Positions 2,395 through 19,120 of a stretch of DNA of 19,120 nt are shown here, one piece after another. Location: positions 1 through 19,120 of the forward strand of contig JAKSMH010000004.1 of the NCBI GenBank assembly GCA_024400715.1, read 5' to 3'. Below the pieces are notes generated by a model, which worked only from the letters and a program-made list of their open reading frames with translations, did no database searches and was not told the DNA's origin. This stretch comes from Bacteroidales bacterium (lineage in GTDB: Bacteria; Bacteroidota; Bacteroidia; Bacteroidales; WCHB1-69). Position 1 is the first letter of the stretch. Every line of letters begins with the position of its first letter. A program made the translations under genes and the position numbers.

Positions 2395-2422
2395 GTAGAG
2401 ACGTGGCGTGCCGCGTCTCTAC
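2395..2422. repeat. 28-nt palindrome (REP-like), copy 2
   Basis: Arms GTAGAGACGTGGC and GCCGCGTCTCTAC surround a 2-nt centre and pair fully except for one T·G wobble. Length and core match the copy at 77-104. It lies 24 bases after the peptidase stop and just before a terminator. Confidence 0.85.
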
Positions 2423-2471
2423 AATATTATAACAGAATCCCTCCCGCTACAACAATGGGAGGGATTTTTTT
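2421..2471 (+). repeat. 51-bp direct repeat, left copy (contains terminator)
   Basis: By eye this stretch is identical to 3347-3397. It holds an AT-rich lead, a perfect 10-bp hairpin (AATCCCTCCC at 2436-2445 with GGGAGGGATT at 2457-2466) and a T run. It overlaps the last two bases of the palindrome at 2395-2422. The two copies bracket the toxin-like module. Confidence 0.9.
2436..2471 (+). terminator. Rho-independent terminator of the S46 peptidase
   Basis: A 10-bp perfect stem with an 11-base loop is followed by a run of T. It lies downstream of the peptidase and upstream of the toxin-like pair. Confidence 0.88.
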
Positions 2472-2518
2472 GTGAAAAATTTTTGTATTTTTGCTGTTCA
2501 ATTTTAATGAATCTAACA

Positions 2519-2710
2519 ATGTCAAAAGAAGAAGTTCGATCTTATCGACTCAATTCTATGGAGGAACCAACGGATGAAATGTTGGAATATGTGATGCTCC
2601 AAGTGCGTGATGCTGCGATAATTGCCACGCAAAATGCCAAGGAAGAATTGCAGAGAAGATTTGCAGAAATGTGTTCAAATATATCACGAAGAAAAAAATG
2701 TAAGGCATGA
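2519..2710 (+). CDS. Small protein upstream of Zeta-like kinase; putative antitoxin
   Basis: This encodes 63 residues, charged and probably helical, with no recognised domain. The start at 2519 (MSKEEVRSY...) is preferred. The frame is open back to 2408, but that longer version would run through the palindrome and terminator and give an unlikely N-terminus. An in-frame ATG at 2507 would add four residues. Its TGA (2708-2710) overlaps the next ATG (2707) as ATGA, which implies translational coupling. A possible -7 box (TATTTTTG, 2486-2493) lies upstream. The antitoxin role is inferred only from size, order and coupling. A non-toxin role, for example as an accessory subunit, is possible. Confidence 0.6.
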   Translation: MSKEEVRSYRLNSMEEPTDEMLEYVMLQVRDAAIIATQNAKEELQRRFAEMCSNISRRKKCKA

Positions 2711-3309
2711 ACGATGTAAAACGTCCTACGCTGTGTGTAGTTGCAGGTCCCAATGGTTCTGGGAAAACTTCTACTACGGTTCAACTTCTTGCAAACGAGT
2801 GGACCGAAGACAGTTTGTATATAAATCCTGATAATATTGCCATGCAGAAATTCGGTGATTGGAATTCCTCCAAAGCGGTGATGGAAGCTGCTCAATACGC
2901 TACAGAATTAAGATATAAATGTTTATCTGAAAGAAGAGATTTTGTGTTTGAAACGGTGTTTTCATCAGATGAAAAACTCGATTTTTTGAAGAATGCACAT
3001 CAGAAAGGTTTTTTTATCCGTTTCTTTTTTGTCTGTACAAATTCACCCGAAATAAACATTATGCGTATTGCAAAGCGTTATCTCAACGGGGGGCATGAAG
3101 TGCCGATATCCAAGGTGTTTTCAAGATATTACAAATCCATTGAAAATGCATGTTTGGCCATAGAATTTGTTGACAGAGCATACATTTATGATAATTCGAT
3201 TGAGAATCAAACACCGCAATTATTGTATCGTACTATAAATGGGAAAGTTGTCAAAAGATATGTGAATACACTTCCAGAATGGGCCGAGCAACTTATTAAC
3301 CCTATGTAA
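2707..3309 (+). CDS. Zeta toxin-like P-loop kinase
   Basis: This 200-residue protein is a P-loop NTPase of the Zeta toxin/COG4185 type. Visible motifs are Walker A GPNGSGKT (14-21), INPDN (39-43), FET (81-83), and the RYLNGGHEVP segment (124-133) followed by Arg/Lys-rich SRYYKS, typical of this family's phosphate-binding region. Zeta and PezT toxins phosphorylate UDP-N-acetylglucosamine and so block cell-wall synthesis, but many chromosomal COG4185 members have no tested substrate. It overlaps the upstream small gene by ATGA. A terminator lies 50 bases downstream. The family call is firm; toxin activity is an inference. Confidence 0.85.
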   Translation: MNDVKRPTLCVVAGPNGSGKTSTTVQLLANEWTEDSLYINPDNIAMQKFGDWNSSKAVMEAAQYATELRYKCLSERRDFVFETVFSSDEKLDFLKNAHQKGFFIRFFFVCTNSPEINIMRIAKRYLNGGHEVPISKVFSRYYKSIENACLAIEFVDRAYIYDNSIENQTPQLLYRTINGKVVKRYVNTLPEWAEQLINPM

Positions 3310-3346: not shown

Positions 3347-3397
3347 ACAATATTATAACAGAATCCCTCCCGCTACAACAATGGGAGGGATTTTTTT
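3347..3397 (+). repeat. 51-bp direct repeat, right copy (contains terminator)
   Basis: Identical by eye to 2421-2471. Upstream, only a degraded right palindrome arm remains (TCTCCAC at 3342-3348); the left arm is missing. The toxin-like pair lies exactly between the two copies. Confidence 0.9.
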
Positions 3398-3398
3398 T
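3362..3398 (+). terminator. Rho-independent terminator of the toxin-like pair
   Basis: A perfect 10-bp stem (3362-3371 with 3383-3392) is followed by eight T in total (3391-3398). Confidence 0.88.
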
Positions 3399-3489
3399 GG
3401 AAAATTCAGTTTTTAAATATTCTGATTCATAAAGAGTAAAGAAGTAGCTGGCGGAGGAAAGATGAGGTATAAAGTTCAAAAATTTTATG

Positions 3490-3902: not shown

Positions 3903-5357
3903 ATGAAATTTAATCCTGAAAAATGTCGTATTCCAGATGAAATCGGAAAACCGTTCATTGACCCAGAAGAAATCTGGGATTACATCAACAACACGAAAAG
4001 CACACCGGAACGCGTCCGAGCCCTGATTCAGAAATCATTGGACAAGCAGCGTTTGACGATGGAAGAAACCGCCGTTCTCATCAACACGACCGATCCCGAA
4101 TTGGTTGAGGAAATCAAGGAAGGTGCCCGCGAGTTGAAACGTCGTATTTATGGAAATCGTATCGTGCTTTTTGCTCCTCTTTATGTGGGAAATTACTGCG
4201 TGAACAACTGCAAGTATTGCGGTTTTCGTTCGTCTAATCACGAGCAGGTGCGTACCACCCTTACCGATGAGGAGTTCGTACACAATATCGAGGCTTTGGA
4301 AGAAGACGGTCAAAAGCGTTTGATTTTGGTGTATGGCGAATCTCCCAAATATTCACCCGAATTTATTGCCCACACCACTCGTCTGGCTTACTCGGTTCAC
4401 AAGGGTAACGGTTCCATTCGTCGTGTCAATATCAATGCCGCTCCTTTGGATGTGGAAGGTTTTCGCACGGTGAAAGAGGCCGGTATCGGCACATACCAGA
4501 TTTTCCAGGAAACTTATCATCCCGAAGCCTATACCTGGTATCATCCGGCCAACACCATCAAGGGAAATTATGAGTGGCGATTGACGTCTATGGACCGTGC
4601 CCAGCAGGCCGGCATCGACGATAATGGTCTCGGCATTTTGTTCGGTCTTTACGATTGGCGTTTTGAAGTGTTGGCGATGATTCGTCATACCAATCACTTG
4701 GAGGCTTGTTTCAATGTCGGTCCTCACACGATTTCGTTCCCGCGTATCAAGGATGCTTCGGGCTTGAATATCGACACCAAGTATTTTGTCGATGATGAAA
4801 CTTTTGAAAAGATTATTGCCATTTTCCGTTTGGCGGTGCCTTATACGGGTATGATTTTGACGGCTCGCGAAACCGCCGAATTTCGTGCCAAGGCCATCCA
4901 ATATGGAATTTCTCAAATCGATGGTGGTACCAATTTGCAGATTGGTGACTATAAATATCATCACGAAGAGGAAGAAAAAAACAGCGATAAAGTTGAAAAC
5001 CAAAACCTGCACCGCGAACAATTCAAGATTGGCGATGACCGTAATTTGGGCGAAATCATCGAGGAATTATTAGACGAAAACTATATCCCGAGTTTCTGTA
5101 CGGCTTGCTATCGTTTGGGACGTACGGGCGAGCATTTTATGGAATTCAGCGTGCCCGGCTTCATCAAGCGCTATTGTACGCCCAACGCCATTCTGACACT
5201 TAGTGAATACTTGGTTGATTATGCCACACCAGAAGTTGCCGCCAAGGGTTGGAAAGTGATTGAGAACAATATCGTCAATGTGGATGAAAAGTTCCGTGAA
5301 GAATTGCTGAAACGTATCGAACGCATTAAAAACGGTGAAAGAGACTTGTATTTCTAA
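3903..5357 (+). CDS. hydG: [FeFe] hydrogenase H-cluster radical SAM maturase HydG
   Basis: HydG is a radical SAM tyrosine lyase. It cleaves tyrosine to p-cresol and dehydroglycine, then makes CO and cyanide for the diiron centre of [FeFe] hydrogenase. The radical SAM cluster motif CX3CX2C is present (Cys99, Cys103, Cys106). The C-terminal motif CX2CX22C (Cys399, Cys402, Cys425), which binds the auxiliary cluster and labile iron, separates HydG from the tyrosine lyase ThiH. The length of 484 residues is normal. It follows the TM1266-type gene directly. The partner maturases HydE and HydF and the hydrogenase HydA are not in this window, so they must lie elsewhere if the system works. Codon use matches the core genes here (nearly all Arg codons are CGN). 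Confidence 0.96.
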   Translation: MKFNPEKCRIPDEIGKPFIDPEEIWDYINNTKSTPERVRALIQKSLDKQRLTMEETAVLINTTDPELVEEIKEGARELKRRIYGNRIVLFAPLYVGNYCVNNCKYCGFRSSNHEQVRTTLTDEEFVHNIEALEEDGQKRLILVYGESPKYSPEFIAHTTRLAYSVHKGNGSIRRVNINAAPLDVEGFRTVKEAGIGTYQIFQETYHPEAYTWYHPANTIKGNYEWRLTSMDRAQQAGIDDNGLGILFGLYDWRFEVLAMIRHTNHLEACFNVGPHTISFPRIKDASGLNIDTKYFVDDETFEKIIAIFRLAVPYTGMILTARETAEFRAKAIQYGISQIDGGTNLQIGDYKYHHEEEEKNSDKVENQNLHREQFKIGDDRNLGEIIEELLDENYIPSFCTACYRLGRTGEHFMEFSVPGFIKRYCTPNAILTLSEYLVDYATPEVAAKGWKVIENNIVNVDEKFREELLKRIERIKNGERDLYF

Positions 5358-5494
5358 TCGAAATCAGGCTTAATGGTTATTTTTTCTCATAACTTGGCGA
5401 CAATATTGCAAATTATCCGTAATGTCTCTGTTCTTTTCTGATACAATTAGTATTTGACTCTGGAAAGTAATAGTTTCTTATATCGTTTTTTTTG

Positions 5495-5502
5495 TAATTT
5501 TG
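5495..5502 (+). promoter_or_regulatory. -7 box upstream of the six-gene block
   Basis: TAATTTTG fits the Bacteroidota -7 consensus and is the best candidate in the 224-base gap after hydG. The -33 element is unclear. Transcription would begin near 5508, giving a leader of about 75 bases before the ATG at 5582. All six downstream genes could be read from it. I see no convincing terminator in 5358-5494. Confidence 0.5.
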
Positions 5503-5581
5503 CATCGTCAAGTTATGATTCGTAAAAAAATTTGATATTAAAGGTATCTCATTCTTTTGAGGTTTTAAACACTTACAAGTT

Positions 5582-6652
5582 ATGATTACGCAAAATATGT
5601 CCGAACGTATCACTTCATTGCGTTGGTTGTGTATCATTCTTGTGGTGTTGCAGCATTCTGTACAATGGCCTTATTTCCAGTCATCTATGGCTGATTTTTG
5701 TTTTGAGCCAGTGTTTGGGTGGATATATATGGTGGTTGAGGATGGACTGGGCATTGGAATAGTGCCAGTCTTTTTCATAATGTCGGGCTATCTGTATTTT
5801 GAAAAGCCTCGCAAATATAGGGATACTATCGTGAAAAAGAGCAGGGGACTTCTGCTTCCCATAATACTATGGACAGCTATTGTCTGTATAGAATATCTGG
5901 TGCTGAAACGGTGGACAGGAGAGATTGATAGATTCGCTTTTCTGAACAGTTCTTCTCCATTGGAGTGGTTCAAAGGAATAATCGGAGACTACTCCAATAT
6001 GATGCATGGCGGAATAGGCGTTCCTGTGTTATACCAATTTTGGTTCATACGAGACCTGTTTATATTGTCGCTTCTGTCACCAGTGATAAACTGGTTACTG
6101 CAAAAGATTCCGTGGATATATATGACAGTTTGTTTGGCCTTGATGTTTTTCTTGATTTCTCCGGCTGTTGCGCCCCATGCCCTGTTCTTTTATTCGCTCG
6201 GCGGGCTCTGTGCAATCAGAGAATGGAATTTCTTCGATATTGCAGACAAATATGTACCTTGGCCATTGGTAATCATAGGTGCCGTAGCAGCCGTCATATT
6301 TGTTCATACAGAAGGAATATATTGCGGTATTACAACTCATTTTCTTGCTCACATGCCAACATTTTTCCTCTTGCTGAAGCTGTCGAAATTTCTCATTGCC
6401 AATAAGAAAGTATATGAATTCACCAGGAAGATGGCACCTCAGTCCATGTTTCTTTACGGAGCCCATACCTATATGCTGATAAACGTCATTGGCATGATGC
6501 TGGTAAGTATCATTGACGTAACCAGCACATTGGGCATAATTGTCTTTTTTTTGCTGCTTTTTTTCGTGGATGTGTGTATTTGTACAGCGGCGGGAATTGC
6601 GGTACGGAAATATTTGCCTAAAACATTCAGTTTGCTAAGTGGAGGACGTTAG
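5582..6652 (+). CDS. Acyltransferase-3 family membrane protein
   Basis: This 356-residue integral membrane protein of the acyltransferase-3 family probably transfers an acyl (often acetyl) group to a sugar or other hydroxyl at the inner membrane. The N-terminal signature is present: Arg14 in SLRWLCIILVVLQH with His25, followed by FFIMSGYLYF and a basic loop. About ten hydrophobic segments follow, as expected. Starts at Met1 or Met6 (MSERITSLRW) are both possible. Its TAG is 2 bases before the next ATG, and a GGAGG Shine-Dalgarno for the next gene (6641-6645) lies inside its 3' end. AGA/AGG and ATA codons are frequent, unlike hydG just upstream. The acceptor molecule is unknown; context suggests the product of this block. 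Confidence 0.85.
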   Translation: MITQNMSERITSLRWLCIILVVLQHSVQWPYFQSSMADFCFEPVFGWIYMVVEDGLGIGIVPVFFIMSGYLYFEKPRKYRDTIVKKSRGLLLPIILWTAIVCIEYLVLKRWTGEIDRFAFLNSSSPLEWFKGIIGDYSNMMHGGIGVPVLYQFWFIRDLFILSLLSPVINWLLQKIPWIYMTVCLALMFFLISPAVAPHALFFYSLGGLCAIREWNFFDIADKYVPWPLVIIGAVAAVIFVHTEGIYCGITTHFLAHMPTFFLLLKLSKFLIANKKVYEFTRKMAPQSMFLYGAHTYMLINVIGMMLVSIIDVTSTLGIIVFFLLLFFVDVCICTAAGIAVRKYLPKTFSLLSGGR

Positions 6653-6654
6653 AT

Positions 6655-7827
6655 ATGAATGAAGTATATAAACAGGTGTGCCCGGGATTGTATTTCGTAG
6701 AGTACGATGATTTCGACTTTGACAAGGCCGCTGAATGGGCAAACAAAAGATTCTTTCCCGAAGGACCGTTTTGTTCAGCTGTGAGAAAAGGTAGATATGC
6801 TGGACGAAATATGGATATCTTGTCAGAATTCAAGGCTGCCGTTATTATGCTGATGAAAAGCAGTTGTGCTCGTTTTTCCTCTTTGAACACTTCTGAAATC
6901 TCATTATTTCCTGCCATTCAGGATGCCATCGAGAGTCAAGAAAGAAAAGACGTATATTACAAATTACCGCAAATGACATACGATGGCATTAACGAAAAAG
7001 GCGTCACGGCAATATCATTGATGACATCAAATGGCAATGCATCGGAAGACAAGTCAAAATGGGGAGGCCGGGAGTGGGGCAAGAGTGCGGCATTTACAAA
7101 GCCGGATGCCCTGAAGACCTATTCTACAACACTGCTGGTAAGGTACGTGCTTGACAATGCGGCAAATGTGGATGAAGCCATCGAACTCATAAAGCAAGTC
7201 AACTGGTTCGACCCTGACAGATTTACCTGGCGAAATCATGCTGGTGCTCTCAAATGGCTAATATCCGATCCGAAAAAATCTGCTGTAGTGGAATTTATTG
7301 ACAACGAGATTAAAATTCTTCTTACAGATGATGTCAATAGGCCTTCGCTAAGAACCCTTGCTGCTAATTTCAGTCAATATCTTATGGAAAAAGGGATTGT
7401 CCAATATGACGCAACGGGTTACGAACGTTTTGACCTAATGTGCGATCTATATAAGAATGTGGATGATTCCATAGATGGTATCCAGTCTGTTCTGAGGTCA
7501 GTAATGATGTCGGAAAAACATAAGCGAAACATTTCAGACAAATACTTTTTTGCGACAGAATATATGTGGGACGAATCTCCTACGGGCAGACATTTCAATG
7601 CAGAAGAGATTTATCAGGGAAATGCCAGACACGATCCTGATTTTATTAAAATTGTTGAACTGGAAAAGGAAAGACATTACAACAAGTCGCTGAGACCAAA
7701 AAACTATCGGACTCACGTTACCGTTTATACAACAGTATATGATATGGCAGAAAAAAAATTATGGATACTGCTCAACGAGGGAGTGTCCGACAGCAAATGG
7801 TATGAATTCGAATTTTTAAATAAATAG
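6655..7827 (+). CDS. Ntn-type linear amide C-N hydrolase (choloylglycine hydrolase-like)
   Basis: This 390-residue protein resembles the choloylglycine hydrolase/penicillin V acylase group, which hydrolyses linear amides with an N-terminal cysteine nucleophile. Cys40 (FCSAVRKG) is followed by GRNMD (Arg51, Asp54). DGINEKG (Asn113) and KWLISDPKKSAVVEF match other family motifs. The nucleophile would become N-terminal only after removal of about 39 residues, so an autocatalytic propeptide is inferred. The N-terminus lacks a signal peptide, so it is probably cytoplasmic, unlike secreted bile salt hydrolases of Bacteroides. It sits 2 bases after the acyltransferase, suggesting that it removes or rearranges an acyl group in the same pathway. 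The related acyl-transferring C45 type is an alternative. Substrate unknown. Confidence 0.78.
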   Translation: MNEVYKQVCPGLYFVEYDDFDFDKAAEWANKRFFPEGPFCSAVRKGRYAGRNMDILSEFKAAVIMLMKSSCARFSSLNTSEISLFPAIQDAIESQERKDVYYKLPQMTYDGINEKGVTAISLMTSNGNASEDKSKWGGREWGKSAAFTKPDALKTYSTTLLVRYVLDNAANVDEAIELIKQVNWFDPDRFTWRNHAGALKWLISDPKKSAVVEFIDNEIKILLTDDVNRPSLRTLAANFSQYLMEKGIVQYDATGYERFDLMCDLYKNVDDSIDGIQSVLRSVMMSEKHKRNISDKYFFATEYMWDESPTGRHFNAEEIYQGNARHDPDFIKIVELEKERHYNKSLRPKNYRTHVTVYTTVYDMAEKKLWILLNEGVSDSKWYEFEFLNK

Positions 7828-7831
7828 AATT

Positions 7832-9040
7832 TTGAAAAATATAGCAATAATATCGCATGATAATATTATGTCGTGGTCTGTGGCGAAGATTGCGGTTGGG
7901 TTGAACGATTATTTGAATAGCAGGGGATTGGTATCCAAACTGTATGTAGCTGTTGGTGAAGACAATTCGTCAGTTTGTGTTTTCTGCAACAAGGTTGATA
8001 TGGCCATCCATAAATTTCTTTTCTGGCTTACCGGAAAGGATGGAAATTACTCTCATTATTCCACACGAAAATTGCTTCGGAAACTTGAAGAACGCAAGGT
8101 TGATACGATCTATATCCTGATGATGCATTCTTTTTTCATCAATGAGTCAATGTTGTTCAACTACATAAAGAAACGAGGTATTTCTGTGGTGAATATTATG
8201 CTTGACGAATATGTTTTTTCTGGCAAATGCCATTTTAACTTCGGATGTAAGGAGTTGGAAGATGAATGTGTGAATTGTCCGCATCTCAGAAAGCACCCTG
8301 TCTGCATAATGAAATCAGGACCGCACAAGGTGTTCCTCCGAAAGAAGCGAAACTATGAGGGAACCAATATGGTCTTCGTTGGTCCCGAGATGGCACTGAA
8401 TGGAGCGCGTCGTTCTCCTTTGCTGAAGGGACGTGTCTTGATAGAGGCCGATGAATGTATCGACACTCTCCGGTTCCGTCCGCGGGATACATCCGCTCTA
8501 AGACGGGAATTGGGTATTTCCCAAGACAAGATCGTTTGTATGTGTGTGGCAGTATATGATGGTATTCATCATGAACGCAAGGGTGTACCATATTATATCG
8601 AGTTGGCCAGACGGTTTGAGCAAGACGACAGATTTGTTTTTGTGCAGGTGGCATATATGGCTGATTATCCCGGTGGACTGCCATCCAATTATATTGCAAA
8701 AGGTTTCATCAACGATATCGATCTCGTTGCTGAATATCTATCACTTGCAGATCTGTTCATCTTCCCGTCTATGGCAGATACAATGCCAAACACTTGCATT
8801 GAGGCTATGTCTTGCGGAACTCCTTTGCTCTGCTGGAAGGTGTATGGCAACGAGAAAATGGCTCCTCCAGAGATTGCGACGTTTGTTACTCCCAGAAATC
8901 TTGATGAAATGGAAGAAGTGGTGAATCGGCTTGAAAAGAAAAATGAGAATATGATAAACCGATGTCGCGAATATGCCGTTAAGAGATATGATAATCAGGC
9001 ATATTTCAACAAACTAATGGAAATAGGAGAAAATTTATGA
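7832..9040 (+). CDS. GT4-type glycosyltransferase (WcaC-like) with four-cysteine motif
   Basis: This 402-residue cytoplasmic retaining glycosyltransferase has a GT-B fold. The start is TTG at 7832, which gives the typical first strand (KNIAIISHDN); the next in-frame ATG would remove it. A four-cysteine motif CX5CX6CX2C (Cys133, Cys139, Cys146, Cys149) is seen in a subset of GT4 enzymes such as WcaC-like proteins and may bind zinc. The C-terminal donor-site signature is Asp316-X7-Glu324 (DTMPNTCIEAMSCGTP), with Asp in place of the usual first Glu. Its TGA overlaps the next ATG. It could use the nucleotide sugar made by the next two genes; donor and acceptor are unproven. Confidence 0.85.
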   Translation: MKNIAIISHDNIMSWSVAKIAVGLNDYLNSRGLVSKLYVAVGEDNSSVCVFCNKVDMAIHKFLFWLTGKDGNYSHYSTRKLLRKLEERKVDTIYILMMHSFFINESMLFNYIKKRGISVVNIMLDEYVFSGKCHFNFGCKELEDECVNCPHLRKHPVCIMKSGPHKVFLRKKRNYEGTNMVFVGPEMALNGARRSPLLKGRVLIEADECIDTLRFRPRDTSALRRELGISQDKIVCMCVAVYDGIHHERKGVPYYIELARRFEQDDRFVFVQVAYMADYPGGLPSNYIAKGFINDIDLVAEYLSLADLFIFPSMADTMPNTCIEAMSCGTPLLCWKVYGNEKMAPPEIATFVTPRNLDEMEEVVNRLEKKNENMINRCREYAVKRYDNQAYFNKLMEIGENL

Positions 9041-10215
9041 AAATAAAAAAAGATTTTATTCCGTTTTCTCGTCCTTCAATAGGCGAGGATGCCGTTGAAT
9101 CCGTTGCGGAATCCATCCGTGCGGGATGGGTGGCAATGGGTCCTAAAGTCCTGCAATTTGAAAAGGCCATTGCAGAACGTACGGGCGCTTCGTACGCTAT
9201 ATCAATGAACTCGGCAACAGCAGGTCTGCATTCGTCAGTCATGGCAATGGGTATAGGGAATGGTGACGAGGTAATCACTACACCGATGACTTTTGCTTCA
9301 ACAGTGAATGCCATAATCTTCGCTGGCGCAAAACCTGTACTAGTGGATATTGACAGAAGGACATTCAATATTGATACAGCAAAAATAGAACAGGCTATAA
9401 CAGCTCATACGAAAGGAATCATACCCGTTCATTTTGCCGGAATGCCTTGCGATATGGATGAAATCGAACGGCTAGCTTCCAAATACAACCTCGTGATAAT
9501 CGAAGATTCCGCCCATGCTTTAGGAGCTTCGTACAAGGGTAAGGAAATAGGAGCAGACAAAGGCAAAGGACATGTGGCCGTGTTCAGTTTTCATCCTACA
9601 AAAAACATCACAACAGCCGAAGGTGGAATGGTCTGCACTGAAGATGAGGATATCGCCGAATATCTGTCCGTCTTCAGACAGAACGGGATGTCGAAAGGTG
9701 CGTGGAATAGATACTCTTCTTCCGGCAGTACACATTACGATGTTCCTATGCCTGGATTGAAATACCAGATGTCTGACATTCAGGCCTCCATCGGACTTTC
9801 CCAGATAAAGCAGCTTGACGACTTCAACTGGCGGCGTAGGGAGCTGTGCGAGATATACGAGAGAGAGCTCTCCGATTGTCCGGGCATCACTTTTCAGAAA
9901 CCGGCAGAATATAATTATGTGCATAGCAGACATATATTTCCAGTGCTGGTGGATAGTGACGTTCTCAGGATTGATCGAGACTTGTTTATGCAGCAGATGA
10001 AGGATAGAAACATAGGCACTGCTATACACTACAATGCCATCCATCTGTTCAGTGCTTATGCAAAGATAACAGGAAATACAAGAGGCGATTATCCGGAAGC
10101 TGAATATGTGTCGGACAGAATAGTTTCAATTCCGATGTTTCCTGCTATGAGCTATGACGATTTGTCATACTGTATCGATGCAATTAAAGAAATATGTAGA
10201 AACAATATCAAATAA
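9037..10215 (+). CDS. DegT/DnrJ-type sugar-nucleotide aminotransferase, ArnB-like
   Basis: This 392-residue PLP-dependent enzyme transfers an amino group to a 4-keto sugar nucleotide. The PLP lysine is Lys189 in SFHPTKNITTAEGG, and Asp157 in EDSAHA contacts the ring nitrogen. The N-terminus (IPFSRPSIGED, GW...GPK) and the overall spacing resemble ArnB of enterobacteria, whose PLP lysine is Lys188; ArnB makes UDP-4-amino-4-deoxy-L-arabinose. Other members of this family (PseC, perosamine synthase) are possible. The ArnA-like neighbour 11 bases downstream favours the ArnB assignment. It overlaps the glycosyltransferase by ATGA and has a GGAG site at 9026-9029. By hand count, 12 of 19 Arg codons are AGA/AGG. 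Confidence 0.88.
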   Translation: MKIKKDFIPFSRPSIGEDAVESVAESIRAGWVAMGPKVLQFEKAIAERTGASYAISMNSATAGLHSSVMAMGIGNGDEVITTPMTFASTVNAIIFAGAKPVLVDIDRRTFNIDTAKIEQAITAHTKGIIPVHFAGMPCDMDEIERLASKYNLVIIEDSAHALGASYKGKEIGADKGKGHVAVFSFHPTKNITTAEGGMVCTEDEDIAEYLSVFRQNGMSKGAWNRYSSSGSTHYDVPMPGLKYQMSDIQASIGLSQIKQLDDFNWRRRELCEIYERELSDCPGITFQKPAEYNYVHSRHIFPVLVDSDVLRIDRDLFMQQMKDRNIGTAIHYNAIHLFSAYAKITGNTRGDYPEAEYVSDRIVSIPMFPAMSYDDLSYCIDAIKEICRNNIK

Positions 10216-10225
10216 TGTTTTTGAA

Positions 10226-11242
10226 ATGAAAATACTTGTTACCGGTATCAACGGATTTATAGGTTCTCATTTTTTGGATTATGTGATTGCAAATACCGAT
10301 TGGGAAATATTAGGCGTTGATATATCTGACAGTTACGTTAGTCGTTATGCAGGAGAAAACAGATTTTCTTTCCATAAATTGGATATTAGTGAAAATCAGG
10401 ATTCGATCAGAGAGTTGATTTTACAATCTGATTTGGCAATCCTTCTTGCTGGTATAGCACGTCCCGCAGAATATGTGCAGCACCCGTTGAAGGTCTTTGA
10501 ACTGGATTTTGAGTATAATTATCAAATGGTGAAGATGTGTGCGGATGCCGGTGTGAGGATTATCTTTCCATCTACTTCTGAAGTCTATGGTCTGGGAAAT
10601 GACCAGCCAATGAATGAAGATAAAACAAATCTCGTCCTTGGCCCAATTTGTGAGACAAGATGGATATACAGTAATGCCAAGCAGATGATGGACCGCATAA
10701 TCTTTGCGTTAGGGCAGGAAAGAGGACTTGGATTCACCATCATTCGTCCGTTTAATTGGACGGGACCAAGACTTGATTCTTTTGCACACGCGAAACAACA
10801 CCAGGCGAGGGCAATTACGCAGATGGTATATGATTCCTTTCACCATCACGAAATAGTCATTGCGGGGGAAGGAAATCAAAAACGCAGTTTTACGTGGATT
10901 GGTGATGGTATCGAAGCTATTGTATCCATCATCAAAGCAGGTGATGCCGCCTGTGGCAAAATCTTTAATATCGGGAATCCTGACAACAACTGTTCGATCA
11001 AGAAATTTGCCGAATTGCTGTTGTCTGTCATGAAGGAATTTCCAGAGACGGAAGCAGCCGCACGACAAACAGTACTCAAGGAAGAATCGTATGCGTCATA
11101 TTATGGTATAAATTATGCCGATACCATCAACAGGATACCGGATATCAGCAATATAAAATCCGTGACAGGCTGGAGTCCGGTTACGCCAAATTATGAGATC
11201 ATCAAAAATACAATTGAGTCTATAATAAGAAATGATGTATGA
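10226..11242 (+). CDS. NAD-dependent UDP-glucuronate decarboxylase, ArnA C-terminal domain-like
   Basis: This 338-residue short-chain dehydrogenase-type enzyme probably oxidises and decarboxylates UDP-glucuronate to a UDP-4-keto-pentose. The start at 10226 gives MKILVTGINGFIG with the NAD motif at Gly7, Gly10 and Gly13. The frame extends back to 10154, but that part overlaps the upstream gene. STSEVYG (Ser118, Glu119), Tyr148-X3-Lys152 and Arg303 match the ArnA residues Ser433, Glu434, Tyr463, Lys467 and Arg619, which are linked to decarboxylation. RWIYS, RPFNWTGPRLD and RAITQ are also shared with ArnA. The ArnA formyltransferase domain is absent. UDP-xylose synthase is a less likely alternative. 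The stop overlaps the next start (ATGA). Confidence 0.86.
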   Translation: MKILVTGINGFIGSHFLDYVIANTDWEILGVDISDSYVSRYAGENRFSFHKLDISENQDSIRELILQSDLAILLAGIARPAEYVQHPLKVFELDFEYNYQMVKMCADAGVRIIFPSTSEVYGLGNDQPMNEDKTNLVLGPICETRWIYSNAKQMMDRIIFALGQERGLGFTIIRPFNWTGPRLDSFAHAKQHQARAITQMVYDSFHHHEIVIAGEGNQKRSFTWIGDGIEAIVSIIKAGDAACGKIFNIGNPDNNCSIKKFAELLLSVMKEFPETEAAARQTVLKEESYASYYGINYADTINRIPDISNIKSVTGWSPVTPNYEIIKNTIESIIRNDV

Positions 11243-12987
11243 ACATCGGCAGAAAAAGAAGTGACATTATCAACAAGATGTTCAGTAGTTACATCTTGTC
11301 ATCAATACTAATAATGGTATCTGTCCCCATTCTTGAGATAACAGATGGCATTATGCTTAATCGTGCGGTTTCGCCAGATGCGTTGTCAATGGTTGCTCTG
11401 CTGGCACCTGTCAATATTTTCTTTTTTGCGATCAAAACCATTTTTGTCACTGGACTTTCAATTCTTTCAGCAAAAGCCTTAGGAGAATGCGATTACCATA
11501 AAGGATCGCAGCTGTTTACCGTGGCCATAACTTCAAATGCCATTGTTATAATCGGGCTTACGGCATTGGCATACTTGTTCTTTCCTCAGTTTGTCCAGCT
11601 GTTTTGTGATATTGATAGCCCAATTCATCCTCTTTTGTACGAATATGTCAAGGTAATACTTTTGCAATTTCCTCTTTTGGCAATTTTGTCATCGCTTGAC
11701 ACATATATGCGTCTGGCAGGAAAGTCCCGTCTTGTTTCTGTTACCATTATTGTTAGTTGCTTCTTGAATATTGTGTTGACTTGGATTTTCTTGTATGTTT
11801 TGCATTTGGGAATTAGGGGAGCTGCCATTGCCACAATAATCTGTGCCATAATCACAAAGATTCCGTATATACCATATCTGATTTCCGGAAAGTTCCCGTT
11901 CCGAATCGTCAAAACAAAGTTGTCAACTTATTTTGAAATGATATGGTTAGGTGTCAAGAGAGGCAGCCCAAGTGCACTGAATGATATTGTTATGAGTGTT
12001 ATCTTTTTCGCCACGAATGGCATCGTACTCAATACTCAGGGAGTACAGGGAATGTTTATCTGGTCTGTTACACTGCAATTGCTATCCTTAACAGGAATGA
12101 TTTCAATGGGTTTCAATGGAGTAATGCAGCATATTGGAGTAATGCTGTTGGGTGAAAATGATAACGAGGGATTTATGATTCTGTCCAAGAAAATGTTCTG
12201 GATTCAACTGTCGTCCATTGTGGTTGTAGTTGCATTATGTCTGATTTCCCCAAGGGACATCCTGTACTTTTTCACAAACGGAACAGTAACAGTCACCGAT
12301 CAGTTTATCCATTATTTTATACTCGGAATTTTGATGCTTCTTCCAATGAAAACCTGCATTTCTATTACGGAAATAATAAATATTGGAGGACATACCGGCT
12401 TGGCATTAATAGTCAATTTGTTATCTCTTGTATCAATCTTTATTGCTGCTTTTGCCAGTGTGGCTTTAGGAACGAAATATTTCTGGTGGATGCTGCCAAC
12501 CCTGCAGATGATAGTACTTGTGTTTTTGATGGCAACAACAATCATTATGCATATAAAAAACAGGTATTATTCCTGGTTCGCACTTGTCCCCACAATGCCT
12601 GATGGAGTTTCTATGTTGCTCACTGCAAAATATGACCCTAAGGAAATCGATCCGATGTTGAAAACTGTGTCTAAGTTTCTTGCCATTGCAGAATTGCCTG
12701 AAAATGTTGAGAGAGATGTGCGATTGATATGTGAAGAACTCGTATATCACGTAATTGCTGAAAAGAATGCAAACCCGGATATTACTTTTGAATTGCGTCT
12801 TTCTGACAAACCTGATAAGCTGATTGTTTTTGTTAAAGAAATCGGGAACCTCAAAAATCTCAATGATTTTTTAAATGCTGAAACTTTGAGTACAAAGATG
12901 ATAAGCACTACGGTTCCTGAAGCGAAATATGATTATTTCAACGGGGTCTGTGTTATATCAATCTGCATAGGCAAGACACAGGTTTGA
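11239..12987 (+). CDS. MATE family exporter fused to a C-terminal HATPase-like domain
   Basis: This 582-residue protein has a MATE transporter of about twelve membrane segments (residues 15-450) followed by a soluble domain (about 471-578). MATE proteins export drugs or metabolites using sodium or proton gradients. The soluble part (ENVERDVRLICEELVYHVIA, then alternating strands) resembles RsbW/SpoIIAB-type ATP-binding domains. The N-box asparagine appears to be replaced (CEELVYHV), and no clear glycine-rich ATP lid is visible, so it may not bind ATP. Ordinary MATE proteins have about 450 residues and lack this tail. It is the last gene of the block and overlaps the decarboxylase by ATGA, so it is the likely exporter of the block's product. 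The MATE call is firm; the tail assignment is tentative. Confidence 0.82.
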   Translation: MNIGRKRSDIINKMFSSYILSSILIMVSVPILEITDGIMLNRAVSPDALSMVALLAPVNIFFFAIKTIFVTGLSILSAKALGECDYHKGSQLFTVAITSNAIVIIGLTALAYLFFPQFVQLFCDIDSPIHPLLYEYVKVILLQFPLLAILSSLDTYMRLAGKSRLVSVTIIVSCFLNIVLTWIFLYVLHLGIRGAAIATIICAIITKIPYIPYLISGKFPFRIVKTKLSTYFEMIWLGVKRGSPSALNDIVMSVIFFATNGIVLNTQGVQGMFIWSVTLQLLSLTGMISMGFNGVMQHIGVMLLGENDNEGFMILSKKMFWIQLSSIVVVVALCLISPRDILYFFTNGTVTVTDQFIHYFILGILMLLPMKTCISITEIINIGGHTGLALIVNLLSLVSIFIAAFASVALGTKYFWWMLPTLQMIVLVFLMATTIIMHIKNRYYSWFALVPTMPDGVSMLLTAKYDPKEIDPMLKTVSKFLAIAELPENVERDVRLICEELVYHVIAEKNANPDITFELRLSDKPDKLIVFVKEIGNLKNLNDFLNAETLSTKMISTTVPEAKYDYFNGVCVISICIGKTQV

Positions 12988-13044
12988 TAGACTTTCTGAT
13001 ATTTATTAATTCACTGAACGGCCTCATCGAAATCAATTTAAAAG

Positions 13045-18273: not shown

Positions 18274-19120
18274 CTATGGTTCCGTGATTAGAACGCCGCT
18301 GACAGACCAGAAGCTGAAACTTCCCGCTTGGGGTTCGCCTTGCGGAATGGCGATGGTGAGTTTGTGCTTTCCGGGTTTGAGTTGGCTTAAGTCGAAATAA
18401 ACGGGTTGGGTGGCGGTTCCCGGACACCAGCCGCTACGTGAATAATCGCTGCTGGAAACACCGTTCCAGAAGTTGCCGCTGACGGGATTTAAATGACGGT
18501 AGCAGCCGCAGTCCTCGCGCCACGGGGTATGCGAAAACATAGGCACGCCGTCAATCAGCAGGGTGTTGGTCTTGGGATTGAACTCGTCGCCACCGCCCCA
18601 GCCGCCGTGGCCGGTGCTGATGTAGCGCAGACGGGCATTTTGGGGATTGACGAGGTCAAATTCCACACTTAGACTGTCGCTGCCGAAAATCTTGCCGTAG
18701 TTTTGCCCTGCCATCTCCAGCACGTTGCAGGTGTTGAACAGCGATTGGCAAAGTTCAGTCTCGACTTTTTGCGGAATGTCGCTCCAAAAGTAGTCGCCGG
18801 GATACGATTTGATGTCCAAAGTGACTTTGTGACCGCCTCCGTCATAATTGCCAATCCAAATGCCGATGAGGGCGTCTCCGCTCAAATAGACGGCTAAATC
18901 GCTGACTTCCTGTTTGTAGTAGGCTTCTTTGGCCCATTCGAGTCCGTCAATTTTGACGCGCCCATTAAAATGTCCAACGCCGAAAGGCGTGAAAAAACGC
19001 ATTAGTTCCACGGGTGGCTGCTAGCTGTACAGCGTGGCTCCTGCTGTCCATTGTGTTTGAGCCCTGCCTTCGTCTTCCTGTCCGTCGCGGACATAAATGC
19101 TGGGCAGCGAATCTGGGTGC
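18274..19120 (-). pseudogene. PNGase F-like protein, 5' end outside window, interrupted by in-frame TAG
   Basis: PNGase F enzymes release N-glycans from glycoproteins by cleaving the glycosylasparagine. Downstream of 19011 (GTG), 245 residues match the C-terminal part: RFFTPFGVG (compare RFITPYWVG in PNGase F), a GWG turn, DEF at the place of Glu206, and SGWCPG (compare AGWCPG). The same frame is also open from the window edge and reads SIYVRDG, which matches VYVKNK, and an Asp seven residues before that Val lies where catalytic Asp60 should be (19111-19113). Between the parts is one TAG at 19021-19023. So it is either a nonsense mutation, a sequence error, or a split gene. Translation restart at GTG 19011 would give a protein without the N-terminal domain and signal peptide. 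The substitutions near the E118 region make the substrate uncertain. Confidence 0.7.

Follow-up and report, generated by a model that had tools for sequence, protein, structure and literature searches.

A compact gene island of gut Bacteroidales that may encode an acylated, exported (amino)pentosyl metabolite

Introduction

Nucleotide-activated 4-aminopentoses are known mainly from the lipid A modification of polymyxin resistance and from a few actinobacterial antibiotics; that such chemistry exists outside lipid A is already established for calicheamicin and AT2433, whose aminopentose branches sit in large actinobacterial clusters. As set out in the EvdS6 paper (PMC10338323), most glucuronate decarboxylases yield nucleoside diphosphate (NDP)-xylose, and ArnA, AtmS9, CalS9 and RsU4kpxs release the 4-keto sugar instead; CalS9 and AtmS9 make the 4-keto-pentose for the aminotransferases of calicheamicin and AT2433, ArnA also forms some uridine diphosphate (UDP)-xylose on long incubation, and the structures, in the account given there, left the 4-keto versus xylose outcome unexplained. 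Here a block of six genes is described from a 19,120-nucleotide stretch of a Bacteroidales bacterium (assembly GCA_024400715.1, contig JAKSMH010000004.1; hereafter the window, meaning the whole stretch). The block joins an ArnA-subfamily decarboxylase and a sugar aminotransferase to a glycosyltransferase, an acyltransferase, an amidase and an exporter, and it is read, with a confidence that falls just short of even, as a horizontally acquired modular specialised-metabolite cluster whose product would be an exported small molecule bearing an acyl group and an (amino)pentose.

Results

The block occupies positions 5582-12987 of the + strand and consists of six intact, co-directional reading frames with no internal stops, all over the Pfam cut-offs of their families (Acyl_transf_3, CBAH/AAT, GT4, DegT, Epimerase and MatE). 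In order, these are acyl3 (5582..6652), a membrane acyltransferase of 356 residues (PF01757, 89.3 bits); ntn (6655..7827), an N-terminal-nucleophile (Ntn)-fold amidase/acyltransferase of 390 residues with the predicted nucleophile Cys40, whose 40.3 and 32.2 bits on the CBAH and AAT models (cut-offs 20.4 and 23.2) place it in the family; gt4 (7832..9040), a soluble GT4 glycosyltransferase of 402 residues with a TTG start (PF00534, 50.8 bits); at (9037..10215), a DegT-family pyridoxal phosphate (PLP)-dependent sugar aminotransferase of 392 residues with the predicted Schiff-base Lys189 (PF01041, 407.3 bits); epi (10226..11242), an ArnA/U4kpxs-subfamily UDP-glucuronate oxidative decarboxylase of 338 residues (Epimerase, 153.2 bits); and mate (11239..12987), a MATE exporter of 582 residues with a degenerate HATPase_c_2-like tail (MatE, 66.5 bits). 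The start of epi is most likely 10226 (MKILVTG, like its relatives), the mechanical open reading frame list placing it at 10154, within at. A preliminary description of the window had placed six genes here and named a GT4 enzyme, an acyltransferase, an amide hydrolase and a MATE exporter among them, all of which these matches bear out; of the junctions that it gave as ranging from overlap to 11 bases, the overlaps stand and the widest gap is 10 bases, not 11 (successive gaps of 2, 4, -4, 10 and -4 bases).

The gene-order search that the preliminary description had proposed found the order acyl3-ntn-gt4-epi-mate in G048, a genome of another genus in the same family, where the five proteins are 61, 53, 79, 78 and 63% identical to those of the window, and the order ntn-gt4-at-epi at a contig end (L002) of genome G881. 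Because the five-gene set recurs in another genus and a partial set in G881, the arrangement goes beyond chance. The G048 block has no aminotransferase, 33 bases that include the gt4 stop codon lying between gt4 and epi, and the two DegT proteins found at other places of the genome have 35 and 36% identity to at. A second G881 contig (L060) begins inside epi and continues with a protein of AMP-binding and PP-binding domains (adenylation and thiolation, hereafter A-T); from their overlap inside epi, the two contigs would appear to join. No MATE above 23% identity was found in G881. In G882 (L003), ntn is followed by an A-T protein, 67% identical to that of G881, and then by the start of gt4, with only 952 bases ahead of ntn. 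Among all loci compared, acyl3 had matches only in G001, the nearest of the genomes compared, and in G048, with no orthologue in the G881 and G882 loci. In G883 (L004) a divergent SpoIIE-type phosphatase gene stands upstream of ntn-gt4, a pair that runs to the end of its contig, and L005 and L006 hold the start of ntn only. Thus, given that G048 lacks the aminotransferase and that an A-T protein and no acyl3 orthologue were seen in G881 and G882, the cluster probably makes one member of a modular family of products. Adenylation domains that activate amino acids carry a conserved Asp in the FD motif; the A-T proteins of both sister clusters read FY there, which may hint that their substrate lacks an alpha-amino group.

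SpoIIE-type phosphatase genes were seen near the amidase gene in two loci (L004 8174-9862 and L005 419-2611); together with a PDC-HAMP sensor gene beside one of the tailed MATE genes considered below (L050 3-1199, cut by the contig end), they hint at a signalling link.

In G008, a genome of the same genus as the window, hydG directly adjoins the lipocalin gene with nothing between them; the match to the window runs up to 5366 and resumes at 13023. The window contains exactly two copies of the 10-bp direct repeat ATCGAAATCA, one at 5357..5366, which starts inside the hydG stop codon, and one at 13026..13035; an 18-kb G008 stretch has it once, at the corresponding place. One repeat plus the block amounts to 7,669 bases. 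The block is accordingly described as an inserted island with precise boundaries, insertion being a simpler reading than deletion in G008 because the block is rare. None of the six block genes was seen to encode a recombinase, and none of the 25 longest inverted-repeat pairs among the matches listed spans both island ends. The island with its direct repeats and the ATPase-like tail of the exporter were both missed in the preliminary description. A further difference from G008 lies nearby, where a short gap in the window (3391-3483) faces about 3 kb in G008 (L061) that hold, by eye, ABC-transporter-like and sigma-factor-like genes; it represents a second insertion or deletion near the island.

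As to distribution, a closely related locus (L001), from the horse-faeces Bacteroidales metagenome-assembled genome Horse_feces121, encodes six proteins 98.5-100% identical to those of the window, and six loci in the species-genome collection, whose scan reaches close relatives only, comprise four records named for horse faeces and two with equine species names. Matches to gt4 were found in 2 of 104 genomes of the family (E 1e-45), in 6 of 393 genomes of the order (E 1e-30; only G001 is close, at 98%, the other five being 25-31% identical) and in 1 of 299 genomes of the family of G881, namely G881 itself, with a close match in 1 of 395 genomes across the phylum. Similarly, epi was found in 1 of 295 genomes of the order (E 1e-40) and ntn in 8 of 148 relatives (E 0.001), nearly full-length and at least 54% identical in G001 and G048, weaker and partial in the other six. 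These samples overlap, and most were drawn from larger groups. In the viral collection neither gt4 nor a gt4 alignment had a match, and an amidase alignment had one distant match at 25%; phages gave no match for the amidase, and plasmids gave 30 records for gt4, all below 60% identity (the best 20 of 30 at 22-31%). This gene set was not found described in the open-access literature, by which its absence from print is not proved.

The decarboxylase was placed by comparison with family models and controls. On the U4kpxs model NF008872 epi scored 367.7 bits (cut-off 294), and on the full-length ArnA model 343 bits (cut-off 777); the E. coli ArnA domain, to which epi is 40% identical, scored 505.8 bits on NF008872, and the UDP-xylose synthase (UXS)-like paralogues of G001 and G048 scored 107.2 and 105.7. 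By these scores epi belongs to the ArnA/U4kpxs subfamily; the NF008872 score was rejected as proof of U4kpxs over ArnA, given the score of the E. coli ArnA domain. Glu119, Tyr148, Lys152 and Arg303, which the preliminary description had listed as kept, are present, and they are invariant in all five aligned proteins, including both UXS-like paralogues; being common to these, they were rejected as proof of a 4-keto product. UXS has been reported in Bacteroides (PMC5607165). Because G001 and G048 each carry one separate UXS-like gene besides epi (the naming is an alignment reading), epi is more likely kept for a 4-keto sugar than needed merely for UDP-xylose. PF03721 matches over cut-off in G001 and G048 may be UDP-glucose dehydrogenase or a related dehydrogenase, and a UDP-glucose dehydrogenase is likely available in the genome.

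The aminotransferase proved harder to name. Its Lys189 aligned with the ArnB lysine. It scored 399.2 bits on the ArnB model NF008658 (cut-off 631; E. coli ArnB control, 739.5) and 377.5 bits on the PseC model TIGR03588 (cut-off 423.5; E. coli ArnB, 365.8). Four ArnB proteins share 41-42% identity with it, a PseC-like protein of Acetoanaerobium shares 41%, and five proteins labelled PseC share 33-39%. In a tree of 31 rows (the window, G881, 18 of 120 homologues among the matches listed and 11 references), at fell into a separate group of 20 rows (support 86/93), and both the ArnB clade (four rows; 100/100) and the PseC clade (six rows; 100/98) exclude it; this tree carries a long-branch warning for WecE, PseC_Solidesulfo and PseC_Mariluticola, and 10 of its 28 inner branches are open. 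The identity of at as ArnB, with which the preliminary description had compared it, was therefore rejected, at being below the ArnB cut-off and outside the ArnB clade; the PseC cut-off is missed likewise, and at lies outside that clade. CalS13 is among the Protein Data Bank matches of at (146.3 bits). The putative substrate of at is assigned by its neighbourhood only. Many DegT aminotransferases of the set P0213-P0297, several named Synergistaceae, are about 61-67% identical to at, and the tree, as sampled, sets this group apart from both ArnB and PseC.

Two alternatives concern the sugar. That at acts on some other 4-keto sugar nucleotide, such as a PseC-type 6-deoxy-AltNAc precursor from elsewhere, would fit its position in a third, unlabelled tree group, its score nearer to the PseC cut-off (377.5 of 423.5) than to the ArnB cut-off (399.2 of 631) and its match to the Acetoanaerobium protein (331 bits, compared with 310-325 bits to the four ArnB proteins), which by eye adjoins PseG- and PseI-like genes. 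However, the PseC score is not diagnostic, as E. coli ArnB itself reaches 365.8 bits, four of the six PseC proteins are lower in pairwise comparison (228-240 bits), and the decarboxylase is the sole sugar-nucleotide enzyme beside at; we consider this very unlikely. Alternatively, a plain pentose (xylose or 4-keto-pentose) could be transferred, with the aminotransferase coming in at a later step or modifying some other molecule. UDP-xylose is a possible product of ArnA-type and EvdS6-type enzymes too (PMC10338323), no aminotransferase lies in the block of G048, where the best DegT of the genome is at 35-36%, and the gt4 of G048 (79.4% identical) is as near to that of the window as is the gt4 of G881 (78.9%), which has the aminotransferase. 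Yet the separate UXS-like genes of G001 and G048 would make an ArnA-type enzyme redundant for UDP-xylose, and at sits between gt4 and epi (4-base overlap and 10-base gap), as it does in G881, so that transfer of a plain pentose appears improbable. For the specialised-metabolite cluster, a sugar of the 4-amino-4-deoxy-L-arabinose (Ara4N) type is likely and would be optional: G048 has the other five genes and no aminotransferase, so that the core system does not depend on the amino group. Of the UDP-Ara4N sugar proposed in the preliminary description, the ArnA-type subfamily of the decarboxylase holds, and the product itself is unsecured, the catalytic residues being shared with UXS-like proteins and the ArnB cut-off failed.

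For gt4, a confident predicted model (predicted local distance difference test score 93.1) had SPS, GlgM, BshA and MshA as nearest folds, with PimA within 2 Z; the best-fitting folds, by this model, are mostly enzymes with small soluble acceptors. Its N-terminal domain carries a four-Cys motif (C133/C139/C146/C149; C-x5-C-x6-C-x2-C), kept in 47, 47, 46 and 47 of 47 aligned sequences, respectively, that is possibly metal-binding. In ntn, the predicted nucleophile Cys40 is present in 35 of 35 sequences behind a 39-residue pro-piece, and most structural alignments to mature acylases start at model residue 40 and chain residue 1 or 2, which points to a penicillin-acylase fold with predicted cleavage before Cys40. 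The protein has no apparent signal peptide and is probably cytoplasmic. Its identification as a bile salt hydrolase was rejected, NF038245 giving 33.6 bits against an equivalog cut-off of 350.

These features bear on whether the block decorates a surface glycolipid or polysaccharide, gt4 placing the (amino)pentose on a lipid-linked acceptor, with the MATE protein as flippase, as a minimal envelope-modification locus. MATE proteins are relatives of the Wzx flippases, O-acetylation of surface glycans is a frequent role of Acyl_transf_3 enzymes, and gt4 shows a weak match to the WcaC model (31.5 bits, cut-off 784.85) together with its Cys motif and a DxxPNxxxEA motif that we take to be that of WcaC-like GT4s. 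Against this, no priming transferase, polymerase or ligase turned up when the 17 window proteins were scanned with Pfam or when the surroundings in G048, G881 and G883 were read by eye; such a locus would not be expected to contain A-T proteins or an Ntn amidase that lacks an apparent signal peptide; and the best gt4 folds are mostly those of enzymes with small soluble acceptors, though PimA is among the close ones. The flanks differ from copy to copy: in the window the block lies between hydG and the lipocalin gene, in G048 its neighbours are a sodium:solute symporter and a metallophosphoesterase, and in G881 and G883 they are again unrelated genes, as judged by eye. The preliminary description had held that homologues always sitting in capsule or O-antigen loci would count against its proposal; no such locus was seen around the block copies. 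Surface decoration seems unlikely, and a small exported product is preferred.

The exporter has an unusual C terminus. The best models of mate are MATE efflux families, all below cut-off, and its last ~140 residues resemble HATPase_c_2 (16.9 bits, cut-off 27.4), a tail not listed for the MATE of G048. Five other tailed MATEs were found with mate and could be aligned to it, their tails scoring 45.0 (L047), 46.3 (L049), 43.3 (L051) and 30.6 bits (L048), over the cut-off of 27.4, and 26.1 bits (L050), just under it. In L047 (G881:C70) and L049 (G885:C2) the tailed MATE stands beside a non-ribosomal peptide synthetase (NRPS) gene (condensation, AMP-binding, PP-binding and NAD_binding_4), an adenylation-thiolation-thioesterase (A-T-TE) gene and a protein of 420-439 residues without a Pfam match; in L051 (G884:C184), a 4-kb contig, it stands beside a similar 420-residue protein and a beta-lactamase-family gene. 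The notion that a tailed MATE reliably marks an NRPS-type cluster was weakened, NRPS neighbours occurring in two of the five only. In their own right, L047, L049 and L051 appear to be a recurring small-molecule cluster of horse-gut Bacteroidales, with tailed MATE, A-T-TE and beta-lactamase-family genes, and the NRPS genes of L047 and L049 end in a reductase-type domain.

Since MATE proteins are often drug exporters and the best models of mate are efflux families, albeit all below cut-off, the block might also be a self-protection or detoxification module that glycosylates, acylates and pumps out a toxic gut small molecule. This is hardly credible given that the block brings its own sugar-nucleotide enzymes, that its six proteins had no match in the PADLOC defence library and that activating A-T enzymes occur in two sister clusters.

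Around the block, a leader region (5367..5581, + strand) contains a match to TAnnTTTG at 5495-5502, a pattern match only, presumably to the Bacteroidota -7-like consensus, and the RNA search returned nothing besides transfer RNA. Near the window end lies a Peptide-N-glycosidase F-like protein (18274-19011; N-glycanase_C 161.8 bits, N-glycanase_N 64.7 bits). At 2408-3309, a 100-residue protein overlaps a Zeta-toxin-fold kinase gene (46.6 bits) in a toxin-antitoxin-like arrangement, and this gene pair is present in G008 too. A Peptidase S46 gene (226-2370) has two close relatives in G048 (L031 6356-8572 and 11172-13313), between which lie an amidase-like gene with a lipoprotein-type start and an ATPase-like gene.

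Discussion

For the acylated, exported (amino)pentosyl molecule of the proposed metabolite cluster, we infer the following course, its substrates, acceptor, step order and export included. UDP-glucuronate, supplied by a dehydrogenase encoded elsewhere in the genome, would be converted by epi to UDP-4-keto-pentose through oxidative decarboxylation, and at would transaminate this to UDP-4-amino-4-deoxy-pentose, of arabino configuration if it acts like ArnB. The soluble gt4 would then move the sugar, with retention, onto a small cytoplasmic acceptor. An amide-linked acyl group may be made, removed or exchanged by ntn, and in the window and in G048 an O- or N-linked acyl group may come from the membrane-bound acyl3, acylation in G881 and G882 possibly proceeding through the A-T protein. 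Finally, mate would export the product.

Several observations, mostly from comparison of sequences, are consistent with this course: the compact set conserved in two genera and in part in G881, the empty site with its precise boundaries and the rarity of the block, the ArnA/U4kpxs subfamily of epi where separate UXS-like genes exist, the CalS9 and AtmS9 precedent (PMC10338323), and, furthermore, the tailed MATEs beside NRPS genes (G881 and G885) or accessory genes (G884) and the A-T proteins in the block of G882 and by that of G881. The soluble exported product of the preliminary description is upheld in so far as no capsule or O-antigen locus was seen and the block has its own exporter, and weakened in that its Ara4N sugar is unsecured.

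A number of points weigh against it. The block has no scaffold-making enzyme, and adenylation, carrier and condensation proteins were absent from the Pfam matches of the window block, A-T proteins occurring only in L003 and L060. The aminotransferase is absent from the G048 block, and at is equidistant (about 41%) from ArnB and from one PseC. The Cys-rich motif of gt4 is presumably that of exopolysaccharide-type GT4s, from which a lipid-linked acceptor could follow. The five other tailed MATEs are only 21-24% identical to mate over the match; that of L050 (G883) stands beside a PDC and HAMP sensor gene and that of L048 (G881:C10) among transporter genes (by eye), both with no NRPS. In the window and G048 the mate tail is probably inactive as an ATPase, because its N-box Asn and DxG motif are replaced. 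Moreover, a single empty site was seen (G008), seven of nine same-genus genomes having no lipocalin match, and it is possible that G008 lost the block by recombination between the repeats.

A bolder extension, which we hold to be doubtful, is that the block is one module of a mobile family of clusters, mixed and matched among hindgut Bacteroidales, that make secreted N-acyl aminopentosyl metabolites, the Ntn enzyme working as an acyltransferase on the 4-amino group and being fed by A-T proteins in the sister clusters. If true, these metabolites would be a glycosylated counterpart of the gut fatty acid amides, and UDP-Ara4N-type chemistry would have been redeployed beyond lipid A. Short of that, a self-contained mobile gut Bacteroidales cluster with this chemistry would, if true, be a new source of microbiome metabolites, and it would show that lipid A modification cannot be assumed wherever a gut genome has an ArnA/ArnB-like pair. 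The six-gene size permits direct testing by transfer to a laboratory host.

Compared with known systems, the block resembles, in its enzyme pair, the E. coli arn operon, where an ArnA-subfamily decarboxylase likewise adjoins a DegT aminotransferase (40% identity to the ArnA domain and 41% to ArnB), but it differs in its soluble GT4, Ntn amidase and MATE protein and in an aminotransferase that lies outside the ArnB clade and is missing in G048. The formyltransferase, ArnC, ArnD and ArnT of the arn pathway were, as the preliminary description had stated, not among the Pfam matches of the 17 window proteins; an ArnT-like gene, the only one sought in the wider genome, was found in none of the three carrier genomes at E 1e-4 by a search without positive control. 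With U4kpxs (NF008872) the block shares a decarboxylase over the cut-off of a model that fails to separate U4kpxs from ArnA, and its aminotransferase is outside the U4kpxs definition. Ntn is like penicillin V acylase, bile salt hydrolase and isopenicillin N acyltransferase in fold, position of the nucleophile Cys and pro-piece, though far below the bile-salt-hydrolase equivalog model. The A-T protein in two sister clusters resembles the gut fatty-acid-amide clusters (OaaA/OaaACP/OaaC) of Coprococcus eutactus, as do the NRPS and A-T-TE genes next to which related tailed MATEs stand in further Bacteroidales of the horse gut, whereas the window block has no adenylation, thiolation or condensation domains and has sugar-nucleotide enzymes plus a glycosyltransferase (for the oaa content as given in PMC13142362). 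As in the CalS9/CalS13 and AtmS9 branches, as far as these are set out in PMC10338323, a decarboxylase expected to release an NDP-4-keto-pentose would feed a PLP aminotransferase within a natural-product cluster; here, in contrast, the cluster comprises six Bacteroidales genes with no visible scaffold enzyme. What is new is a compact Bacteroidales island, its combination of an Ntn amidase with a tailed MATE, and an aminotransferase that is optional.

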